Part shown: one piece after another, positions 39,040 through 41,841 of the stretch
Numbering within the stretch: the stretch's first letter is position 1
Layout of the letters: each line of letters begins with the position of its first letter
NCBI RefSeq assembly: GCF_020091585.1
Contig: NZ_CP083582.1
Span: 6,768,536-6,832,535 of the forward strand
Origin: Kovacikia minuta CCNUW1
Lineage (GTDB): Bacteria > Cyanobacteriota > Cyanobacteriia > Leptolyngbyales > Leptolyngbyaceae
Direction of reading: 5' to 3'
Length of the DNA: 64,000 nucleotides
The notes under the pieces: model-generated
The model's database searches: none
Seen by the model: the letters and a program-made list of their open reading frames with translations, nothing else
What the model was told of the DNA's origin: nothing
Position numbers and translations under genes: made by a program

Positions 39040-39341
39040 ATTGATTCAATTGTATGGGTTGCTTTCTTGATTGACCAGGTTTTACTGAATTTCACCGATG
39101 TTTTTTGTGCCCAAGATCGCTAGTGGGTCATGTAAAACCGAGGAAACTCGTGAGTGGGATTACAATTACCCGACCGGGTACTTGACGATTACAGAAATCC
39201 TTTGATACGGTCAGAATACACAAGGCAATGAATGCCTCCCAGTTTTCCACCCGTTTCCCAAATGTTTAGCAACCGATTTTATTTTTGGCGTCCTACGGTT
39301 CACTTGGAGTGAAGCCAGTTTCAACTGAGCATTTCCCAGGT
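39040..39341. other. Gene-free stretch, possible small RNA before a terminator
   Basis: Unique, non-repetitive sequence with a short ACCCGACCGGGT palindrome at about 39167. Possible -35/-10-like words (TTGACG at 39182, then GATACG) would start a transcript that ends at the terminator 39343-39374. No coding frame seen. Weakly supported. Confidence 0.35.
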
Positions 39342-39342
39342 G

Positions 39343-39374
39343 AGCCGCAGTAACCAGTCTGCGGCTTTTTAATG
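39343..39374 (+). terminator. Hairpin terminator upstream of the aroF leader
   Basis: AGCCGCAG TAACCAGT CTGCGGCT followed by TTTTAAT. Perfect 8-bp GC-rich stem, 8-base loop. It ends a transcript that lies before the aroF leader. Confidence 0.8.
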
Positions 39375-39428
39375 CCCCATTTCAATGCCCCAGGCATGTT
39401 TCTCCAAATTTTCCTCAAGCAAAGCGCA

Positions 39429-39491
39429 ATGACAAAGTTAATGAGTTGGTTTTTTGGCTTTTATTTTTGGACCAGGGAACATTCCGGGTAG
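39429..39491 (+). CDS. Aromatic-rich leader peptide of the DAHP synthase gene
   Basis: A 20-codon frame whose product is MTKLMSW followed by FFGFYFWTREHSG: two Trp, four Phe and one Tyr within residues 7-14, a concentration of the three end products of the pathway that aroF starts. ATG 39429 and an in-frame ATG 39441 are both possible starts; the RBS is weak. The stop is at 39489-39491. Immediately downstream are an alternative pair of stems and a terminator (39482-39545). This is the arrangement of ribosome-mediated transcription attenuation: stalling at aromatic codons favours the antiterminator, while reaching the stop codon covers it. Confidence 0.65.
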   Translation: MTKLMSWFFGFYFWTREHSG

Positions 39492-39545
39492 ATTTTTCAC
39501 GCATGTGTTTGTCTAGCCCGGAGCCAAAAAGGTTTCGGGCTTTTT
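39482..39545 (+). promoter_or_regulatory. Predicted attenuator: antiterminator and terminator of aroF
   Basis: Terminator: AGCCCGGA (39515-39522) pairs with TTTCGGGCT (39533-39541), one wobble, followed by TTTTTG. Antiterminator: TTCCGGGT (39482-39489), which overlaps the end of the leader peptide gene, pairs with AGCCCGGAG's core (39516-39523; six Watson-Crick and two G-T pairs) and so uses up the left arm of the terminator. A ribosome at the leader stop codon would block this pairing; one stalled at the Trp/Phe/Tyr codons would not. Confidence 0.6.
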
Positions 39546-39596
39546 GTTTTGCTCCCTGTCCCCTACCCCCTACCCCCTACTTACAAGGAGTTTCAA

Positions 39597-40475
39597 ATGT
39601 TGGAAGCTAAATTAGTCAGTCAATCCCACCCCAATCATCGCAGCCTGATCCGTCTGTCTGAGCAGGTTGCGATCGGGGGCAATGGTATTGTCATCATCGG
39701 CGGTCCCTGTACGGTCGAGAGTCAGGAACAGATGGAACAGATTGCCAGCCGTCTTGCCAGCGTTCCAGTTCAAGCCCTGAGGGGAGGTGTGTATAAGCCA
39801 CGCACCTCCCCTTATTCGTTTCAAGGGCATGGTGTAGATGGGCTGAAAATTCTGGCGCAGGTGCGCCAACGGTATGGCATGCCTGTGGTGACAGAGGTGA
39901 TGTCGATCGCCCAAATTGAACCCGTCGCTGCCTACACCGATATGCTCCAGGTCGGCAGTCGCAACATGCAAAATTTCGAGTTGCTGAAGGCGTTGGGTGA
40001 AGTCAACAAGCCGATTTTGCTGAAGCGGGGGCTGTCGGCAACCATTGAGGAATTTGTCATGGCAGCGGAGTACATCCTGGCACACGGCAACCCAAATGTG
40101 GTGTTGTGCGAACGGGGAATCCGCAGTTTCGATCCCTACACCCGCAATGTGCTGGATCTGGGAGCGGTGGTAGCTTTGCGCCAGTTGACCCACCTGCCGG
40201 TGATTGTGGACCCCAGCCATGCCGCTGGCAAGCGGGAACTGGTGCCCGACCTGGCACGCGCCGCGATCGCCTGTGGGGCAGATGGTTTGATTATCGAATG
40301 CCACCCGGAGCCGGAAAAATCGGTTTCCGATGCCCGTCAGGCACTTTCGTTGGAAGACATGGTGGCGCTGGTGGAAAGTGTGGAGCCGATCACCACAGCG
40401 GTTGGACGCACATTAAGCAGAAATAACCTCCAACCCATCACCGGGTCTAATCTTCCCCAAATACTCGCTGCTTAA
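39597..40475 (+). CDS. aroF: 3-deoxy-7-phosphoheptulonate (DAHP) synthase
   Basis: First enzyme of the shikimate pathway: phosphoenolpyruvate plus erythrose 4-phosphate to DAHP. The 292-residue protein belongs to the short AroF/KdsA-like (Ibeta) group: GGPCTVESQEQM, LRGGVYKPRTSPYSFQG (PEP and E4P site), LLKRGLSATIEEFVMAAEYI, and the metal ligands in VIVDPSHAAGKRELV and IECHPEPEKSVSD. No ACT or chorismate-mutase regulatory domain is attached. The start at ATG 39597 has AAGGAG 6 nt upstream; a longer frame from 39549 is repeat-encoded. It lies downstream of a leader peptide and attenuator that predict control by aromatic amino acids. Confidence 0.95.
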   Translation: MLEAKLVSQSHPNHRSLIRLSEQVAIGGNGIVIIGGPCTVESQEQMEQIASRLASVPVQALRGGVYKPRTSPYSFQGHGVDGLKILAQVRQRYGMPVVTEVMSIAQIEPVAAYTDMLQVGSRNMQNFELLKALGEVNKPILLKRGLSATIEEFVMAAEYILAHGNPNVVLCERGIRSFDPYTRNVLDLGAVVALRQLTHLPVIVDPSHAAGKRELVPDLARAAIACGADGLIIECHPEPEKSVSDARQALSLEDMVALVESVEPITTAVGRTLSRNNLQPITGSNLPQILAA

Positions 40476-40677
40476 TGGTTGACCTGTTCCAGGTTAAACG
40501 TTTCCACAAACTGGGAAAACTATGGCAGTAAGGATGAGGGATGAGGGATGGGGGATGAGGGATGAAGTCAAAGACGATAACATCAAGGCGATTGGGTTCG
40601 CTCAGGAAAATCTCAAGCATTTTGCGAATCGGAATCGCAGATTGGAAATGAAGCTGAGCGAACCCCAGAGGGCACTG

Positions 40678-41841
40678 ATGAAGCGAACGTTTTTGATGGG
40701 AATGGCGATCGTGCTGTGCAATGGCATTTTTGCCCTATCTTTACCCATTTTGTCTTTGGCAGACGAGTCCAATCCCAAGCAAACGGATCAGGCAAAATCC
40801 CAACCTGAGATGATTTACGCCGGAGATTTTTCTGAGGGATTAGCAGCCGTAAAAATTGGCGAAAAATATGGCTATATCGATCGCACAGGAAACCTGATTA
40901 TCCAACCCAAATTCGATTATGCCGGAAGCTTTTCTGAAGGTTTGGCTGTAGTAGGAAAAGAAGGAGAGCCTGAAAAGTGGGGATACATTGACAAAGCTGG
41001 AAAACTTGCAATTCCCTTCAAATTTGATGAGGCAGGTAAATTCTTTGAAGGTTTAGCACAGATACGAGTTGGTAAAGACTATCGTTCCACTACTTATATT
41101 AATAAATTCGGAGAAATTGTTCTTCGCATTGAGAAAGAGGTTTTCGGTTTTTCTGAAGGAATCGCAAGGGTTTGCGAACCTCCGAAATACCCTAAAGCAC
41201 CTTGTCAATACAGCTATATTGATAAATCCGGAGCATCAGTTTTTTCCCCTCAAGTTGATGCATTTGGGAGATTTTCTGAAGGGTTAGCAGAGGCAAGAGG
41301 AAAGAATGGTGGGATTGGTTACATTGATAAGACAGGTAAGTTTATTGTACAACCAAAATTTTTACGCACTGACTCATTCTCTGAAGGTTTAGCAAAAGCT
41401 GCAATTTCTGTAGAGCAAGTGTGTCAGCGAGGGGGAGGGCTTTGTATGAATCAGGAGAAATGGGGGTATATCGACAAGACAGGCGAGTTTGTTATCAAAC
41501 CTCAATTTTTTGAAGCAGAGAAGTTTTCTAATGGATTAGCGCGAGTCAGAGTAAATGGTCGGTGGGGCTACATCGATAAAACTGGAACCTTTGTGATTCC
41601 ACCTCAATTTGATCAGGCTCAGGATTTCTCGGAGGGTTTAGCCTTCGTCCTACAAGAACCAGATTGTCCGGGTAATTCGGTTGATCATAAAACCAATAAA
41701 GAAGGCTTTATTGATCAAACGGGAAAGGTTGTGATTCCTGTTAAGTATGATCGCGAGATGGATATTCGCTGGGCATTCGGCTGCAATCCAGACTTTACTG
41801 AACCACCAAAAACCGAAGTATCCAAAAGCCCTTTCTTTTAA
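40678..41841 (+). CDS. Exported WG-repeat protein
   Basis: A 387-residue protein with a signal peptide (TFLMGMAIVLCNGIFALSLP) followed by about eight WG/KWG beta repeats, each with a core such as FSEGLAAVKIGEKYGYIDRTG, WGYIDKAGKLAIPFKFDEAG, GYIDKTGKFIVQPKF. WG repeats form beta-sheet proteins of unclear function in bacteria. The chosen start has AGAGGG 7 nt upstream and begins the signal sequence. A frame 52 codons longer (from 40522) starts with translated heptads (MRDEGWGMRDE) and is probably not used. It lies 200 bases after aroF and may have its own promoter. Confidence 0.85.
   Translation: MKRTFLMGMAIVLCNGIFALSLPILSLADESNPKQTDQAKSQPEMIYAGDFSEGLAAVKIGEKYGYIDRTGNLIIQPKFDYAGSFSEGLAVVGKEGEPEKWGYIDKAGKLAIPFKFDEAGKFFEGLAQIRVGKDYRSTTYINKFGEIVLRIEKEVFGFSEGIARVCEPPKYPKAPCQYSYIDKSGASVFSPQVDAFGRFSEGLAEARGKNGGIGYIDKTGKFIVQPKFLRTDSFSEGLAKAAISVEQVCQRGGGLCMNQEKWGYIDKTGEFVIKPQFFEAEKFSNGLARVRVNGRWGYIDKTGTFVIPPQFDQAQDFSEGLAFVLQEPDCPGNSVDHKTNKEGFIDQTGKVVIPVKYDREMDIRWAFGCNPDFTEPPKTEVSKSPFF

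Follow-up and report, generated by a model that had tools for sequence, protein, structure and literature searches.

The window, by which we mean the whole 64,000-nucleotide stretch of DNA analysed, encodes a DAHP synthase (aroF), and the DNA upstream of this gene holds two short open reading frames rich in aromatic codons, each accompanied by a predicted antiterminator stem and a hairpin of the intrinsic terminator type. The features are the following:

39182 to 39211, + strand: likely promoter for the entire leader (-35 TTGACG at 39182-39187, -10 TACGGT at 39206-39211), from motif conservation
39262 to 39312, + strand: leader peptide 1 ORF, MFSNRFYFWRPTVHLE, stop codon TGA, from the letters and the conserved aromatic codons, with no Shine-Dalgarno (SD) sequence seen
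39297 to 39307, + strand: 5' arm of antiterminator 1, GGTTCACTTGG, over the last codons of leader 1
39336 to 39346, + strand: 3' arm of antiterminator 1, CCAGGTGAGCC, with 39342-39346 common to terminator 1
39342 to 39367, + strand: terminator 1, 9-bp stem with an 8-nt loop and a T run at 39366-39370, from scan, fold and alignment
39429 to 39491, + strand: leader peptide 2 ORF, MTKLMSWFFGFYFWTREHSG, stop codon TAG, from the letters and the conserved aromatic codons
39482 to 39489, + strand: 5' arm of antiterminator 2, TTCCGGGT, over the last codons of leader 2 and the first base of its stop codon
39516 to 39523, + strand: 3' arm of antiterminator 2, GCCCGGAG, within terminator 2
39515 to 39541, + strand: terminator 2, an 11-bp stem and, after it, a T run, from terminator scan, fold and alignment
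39597 to 40475, + strand: aroF, type I-beta DAHP synthase of 292 aa (Pfam DAHP_synth_1), with an SD sequence AAGGAG at 39585-39590

Directly after aroF lies an ORF of WG repeats (40522-41841; PF14903, six stretches).

In the unit directly before aroF (unit 2), leader 2 runs over 20 codons from the ATG at 39429 to the TAG at 39489-39491 and contains the stretch WFFGFYFW, that is, seven aromatic residues in eight. Short ATG ORFs with at least 7 of 8 aromatic residues occurred once in the 64-kb window and were absent from 60 first-order random sequences. An in-frame ATG farther upstream would yield a 39-codon leader 2, but the 20-codon start was preferred because an ATG is found at that position in 41 of 53 relatives. 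Eight base pairs are formed between TTCCGGGT (39482-39489) and GCCCGGAG (39516-39523), and the terminator scan gave terminator 2 a total of 11 pairs, 7 of them G-C, and a T tail, the end of its stem being 55 nt from the aroF ATG (39597). When folded, RNA truncated before the 3' side of terminator 2 (39482-39530) adopted antiterminator 2 (-18.9 kcal/mol), RNA including that side (39482-39541) adopted the terminator (-23.9 kcal/mol), and the segment 39505-39545 folded with -19.5 kcal/mol. The initial annotation had placed this leader ORF, antiterminator and terminator at the same positions ahead of aroF, and all three proved to be real and correctly located. Its proposal of ribosome-mediated attenuation is supported by the codons, stems and covariation described below, but was incomplete, since unit 2 is the second of two units in series. 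A joint response of unit 2 to Trp, Phe and Tyr, as the annotation also predicted, would follow from the codons of its leader.

The other unit (unit 1; 39262-39370), of like design and absent from the initial annotation, lies just upstream and was discovered by scanning the DNA upstream of relatives' aroF for aromatic ORFs. Terminator 1 has the arms GAGCCGCAG and CTGCGGCTT (39342-39367) and is followed at a distance of about 60 nt by leader 2. Leader 1 reaches 5 aromatic residues in 8, and such ORFs number 3 in the window versus a mean of 1.7 in random sequences, so that by composition leader 1 is not statistically striking and the case for it rests on conservation. Antiterminator 1 takes only the first five terminator bases, and competition between the two stems is limited to this 5-nt overlap. 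When the full unit 1 of the window was folded, most of the antiterminator helix persisted beside terminator 1, which counts against the model. The fold of the window sequence also shows a weak hairpin that may correspond to the protector (1:2) hairpin of E. coli trp.

To follow both units in relatives, 103 distinct short-aroF loci were assembled from the best 30 of a search of 58 related genomes and the top 80 among 351 hits in named genomes, which included Nostoc, Calothrix, Microcoleus and Leptolyngbya, seven duplicates being removed. Covariance models R1 (unit 1) and R2 (unit 2), built from 57 and 53 dereplicated sequences, were used for the counts instead of text patterns, which found fewer units (98 and 88 of 103). 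R1 matched unit 1 in 100 and R2 matched unit 2 in 102 of the 103 loci, and both units were present in 100, figures to be read considering that the model-building sequences match by construction, that relatives are non-independent samples and that the structures were read from the same sequences. Among loci outside model building, the matches were 43 of 46 for R1 and 49 of 50 for R2. One locus (L051) had neither unit and its contig ends close upstream, another (L011) had a partial unit 1 at a contig end, and two more (L072 and L107) had unit 2 with no unit-1 match.

For the phylum as a whole, 244 genomes drawn evenly were searched with stricter filters, at the cost of some weak matches. A short AroF was found in 26 of them (at least 416 bits, 69-100% identity; next best, 311 bits), accompanied by unit 2 in 25, unit 1 in 25 and both in 24, the latter spanning nine families (f1, f13, f18, f24, f26, f27, f28, f29 and f33). 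G165 (f37) had unit 1 only and G192 (f27) unit 2 only. The 218 sample genomes without a short AroF produced zero unit-2 matches and a single unit-1 match (G084), continuing into the remains of a broken short aroF. At this locus (family f28; L193, G084:C48, near 74044-74164), unit 1 is kept with a damaged terminator and is fused to the remnant, and leader 2 is gone, indicating decay of the locus.

The initial annotation had asked for conserved aromatic codons and stems in related aroF leaders, and both were found, the stems with covariation. The proportion of paired cells was 90.0% for antiterminator 1, 99.8% for terminator 1, 93.9% for antiterminator 2 and 94.0% for terminator 2, with double changes at 9 of 13, 4 of 9, 2 of 9 and 5 of 11 pairs, respectively. 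All four stems beat every one of 500 shuffles on cells paired, double-change cells (for antiterminator 2, 14 versus 3.1 in shuffled alignments) and covariation score. For antiterminator 1 no shuffle came up to the real alignment on any of the five measures used, and for terminator 2 the number of further pair types was reached by 2 of 500. Antiterminator 2 was no better than shuffles on pairs with a double change (372/500) and on further pair types (496/500), and terminator 1 was no better on further pair types (490/500). With the partner shifted by 1-3 columns, pairing dropped to 62.5% or less; the shifted antiterminator 2 showed up to 4 pairs with double changes versus 2 in register and, at +2, 18 such cells versus 14. 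Where stem and coding sequence overlap, pairing was kept although the peptide changed, with Arg replacing His in leader 1 and Pro replacing Ser in leader 2.

Promoter motifs, gaps and SD sequences were counted on pattern-based sets (98, 85, 88 and 95 loci), from which loci missed by the patterns had been dropped beforehand. All 98 loci examined carry the motif TTGAC-N(17-19)-TAnnnT within the 150 nt ahead of leader 1, where base shuffles would yield it in about 1.0; in the window its -10 element is preceded by TGA (TGn, extended -10). The same motif was present in none of the 85 stretches examined from terminator 1 to leader 2 and in none of the 88 from terminator 2 to aroF, the place where a promoter would, according to the initial annotation, have spoken against attenuation. 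Therefore, at the level of motifs, both units seem to be read from one promoter upstream. Ahead of leader 2, 40 of 88 loci show an SD-like motif (9.3 expected); ahead of leader 1, an SD-like 4-mer occurs in 2 of 95 relatives (3.9 expected), and the window region 39240-39262 has none. This suggests that the two leaders have different ways of starting translation.

The lack of an SD sequence before leader 1 would suit an arrangement in which only unit 2 works and unit 1 is the relic of a tandem duplication, as would G192, L072 and L107, which match unit 2 and not unit 1. R2 moreover gives weak matches (E 0.00025-0.0073) to unit 1 of 17 of the 103 loci, and also of G165; these fit a common origin and hint at duplication, or else convergence, of the two units. 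A relic, however, would hardly show clearer covariation than unit 2 in its antiterminator, a Trp codon of leader 1 in 57 of 57 rows or a promoter motif ahead of it in every one of the 98 loci, nor would unit 1 be expected in G165, which has no unit 2 of its own; we regard a non-functional unit 1 as improbable.

The seven aromatic columns of leader 2 hold an aromatic residue in 51/53, 46/53, 52/53, 52/52, 48/52, 53/53 and 52/53 rows, and the order Phe-Tyr-Phe-Trp is kept in both leaders. Synonymous Tyr codons are mixed in the conserved columns (TAC 28/TAT 11 and TAC 24/TAT 20). Counted from the first base of the last Trp codon (in a few rows of unit 2, a Phe codon), the 5' antiterminator arm begins at a distance of 11 nt in 54 of 57 rows of unit 1 and of 14 nt in 52 of 53 rows of unit 2, where it reaches the stop codon. 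According to PMC3641672, a ribosome occupies 12-15 nt from the P site, so a ribosome waiting at the last Trp codon would reach about +9 to +12, near or short of the arm, and one at the stop codon would cover it. Leader 1 has an additional Phe or Tyr past the Trp in 39 of 57 rows, about 8 nt from the arm, and a ribosome stalled there might cover the arm, which fits the model less well.

These distances would allow each unit to act as a switch. A ribosome would translate a peptide of 16-20 codons ending in the Phe-Tyr-Phe-Trp run. With charged aromatic tRNAs plentiful, it would arrive at the stop codon and cover the 5' antiterminator arm, and the intrinsic terminator would form. When Trp, Phe or Tyr is short, it would stall at the codon of that amino acid and leave free the arm, which starts about where the stalled ribosome ends and could pair with the 5' side of the terminator, letting RNA polymerase continue.

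The strict Phe-Tyr-Phe-Trp order, beyond what codon counting demands, raises the alternative that the leaders are arrest peptides, whose nascent chain holds the ribosome in response to free aromatic amino acid, in place of a stall for want of charged tRNA; an arrest at the stop codon, which would leave the arm covered as well, agrees with the stems. Yet from the aromatic run to the stop the residues are highly variable except at stem overlaps, exchanges between Phe and Tyr and between Trp and Phe occur, and arrest at the aromatic run under plenty would free the arm, the wrong direction for a biosynthetic gene, so that arrest peptides appear unlikely here. Even less credit can be given to the idea that the short ORFs are incidental companions of ordinary terminators or of RNA elements under protein control: translation of the leaders is indeed only predicted, but the mixing of synonymous Tyr codons, the fixed spacing between codons and arm, the mutually exclusive and covarying stems and the failure of any Rfam family to match at gathering score make it very improbable.

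Taken together, the leader of aroF combines clustered end-product codons in both short ORFs (57 and 53 rows), an intrinsic-type terminator, as judged by sequence, between ORF and gene, an antiterminator arm that would lie under a ribosome at the stop codon and be free upon an earlier stall (in unit 1 competing through 5 nt only) and, at motif level, a promoter before the leader with none after the terminator. We consider it likely that in this leader one promoter serves two ribosome-mediated transcription attenuators arranged in series, which sense charged aromatic tRNAs. Since aroF is reached only by RNA polymerase that gets through both terminators, repression by the two should multiply. Anatomy, conservation, covariation, spacing, the shared upstream promoter motif and the missing enzyme domain discussed below were computed; from them we infer translation, stalling, termination, the response to amino acids and the replacement of feedback inhibition.

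The domain scan revealed that the AroF of the window is devoid of the N-terminal ferredoxin-like regulatory domain (PF18152), which was present in 4 of 4 long paralogues scanned and in 0 of 4 short AroF proteins scanned, namely that of the window and those of three relatives scanned over the matched range. Among the matches listed are many paralogues, about 50-57% identical and encoded in longer open frames, and in two of the 26 short-AroF genomes (G046 and G260) the short AroF is the sole match among those listed. The AroF of the window aligns from residue 70 of the 338-residue solved DAHP synthase 1rzm, which we take to be the T. maritima enzyme. The Tyr sites of T. maritima DAHP synthase are formed by two ACT domains (PMC5493349). 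Only one other DAHP synthase of this kind was found in the genome of the window (L186; G000:C1:75400-78400); its start resembles, by eye, that of the long, domain-bearing paralogues, and it is split over two frames, either by an assembly error or by real loss, with intact copies in relatives.

When the DNA before the 103 short-aroF loci was scanned for an aromatic short ORF plus a terminator, 101 loci gave one or more such ORFs and 77 gave more than one. None was detected upstream of 10 long aroF and 13 pheA loci, and weak candidates appeared at only one (L223) of 12 trpE loci, the scan having left out L186 and 7 of the 19 PF04715 loci, each of these 7 being the second match of its genome. Aromatic ORFs lacking a terminator were common upstream of the pheA, trpE and long aroF loci scanned. 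Together with the domain scans, these results indicate that, in the loci and proteins scanned, the attenuators accompany the enzyme lacking the domain. Given the absence of an allosteric domain from the short AroF, the leader probably stands in for feedback control of this enzyme, and aroF is probably switched off by it when Trp, Phe and Tyr are plentiful. With somewhat less assurance, we also favour a broader reading, a widespread cyanobacterial element in which two attenuators of the same specificity in series would form a multiplicative switch replacing the absent allosteric domain of this DAHP synthase.

In cyanobacteria, as the initial annotation remarks, feedback inhibition is the form of control usually stressed. 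If the proposal is true, ribosome-mediated attenuation operates in these bacteria too, and the enzyme at the entry of a pathway, devoid of its allosteric domain, is instead under the control of its mRNA leader. The succession of two attenuators with like specificity would then be a natural test of why tandem switches evolve, be it for dynamic range or for a sharper response, and engineers of cyanobacteria would have in the leader a ready-made part with which to steer the shikimate pathway.

With the ribosome-mediated attenuators that govern amino acid operons, of the E. coli trpL and pheL type, the aroF leader shares a leader peptide of end-product codons, an antiterminator over the end of the peptide and an intrinsic terminator before the pathway gene; it differs in having two complete units in series, with all three aromatic amino acids in each. 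We know of no earlier tandem ribosome-mediated attenuator with one shared signal set. In the open-licence literature of PubMed Central we found neither a cyanobacterial aroF attenuator nor any other ribosome-mediated attenuator in cyanobacteria, and as far as that literature goes this would be, if true, the first one described there. Neither riboswitches, T-boxes nor other leaders of Rfam matched the window at gathering score, and in 39150-39620 there were only chance-level matches (E 0.9). Closest by gene is aroF of Corynebacterium glutamicum, where a putative Phe-Tyr-Phe leader peptide precedes the DAHP synthase gene; that organism belongs to another phylum, and the source mentions one leader (PMC4046766). 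The uORFC-13-1 motif before Acholeplasma aroF likewise has a uORF with Phe codon(s) and a terminator, but only one uORF, and is represented by 24 sequences from Acholeplasma and environmental samples (PMC8632094). Tandem riboswitches such as that of Bacillus clausii metE also place two switches in series before one gene, with expected intrinsic terminators (PMC3641672); there, however, the RNA senses metabolites directly, whereas the aroF units would read translation. PMC3641672 also presents Salmonella mgtCBR as a singular example of tandem attenuators with different signals. Like the aroF leader, that of mgtCBR has two short ORFs and alternative stems, but its ORFs sense ATP and proline and its stems are unlike intrinsic terminators (PMC3641672), whereas both aroF units have intrinsic-terminator hairpins and leaders with the same kinds of codons, those for Phe, Tyr and Trp, so that, as judged by codons only, the two ORFs do not differ in their signals.
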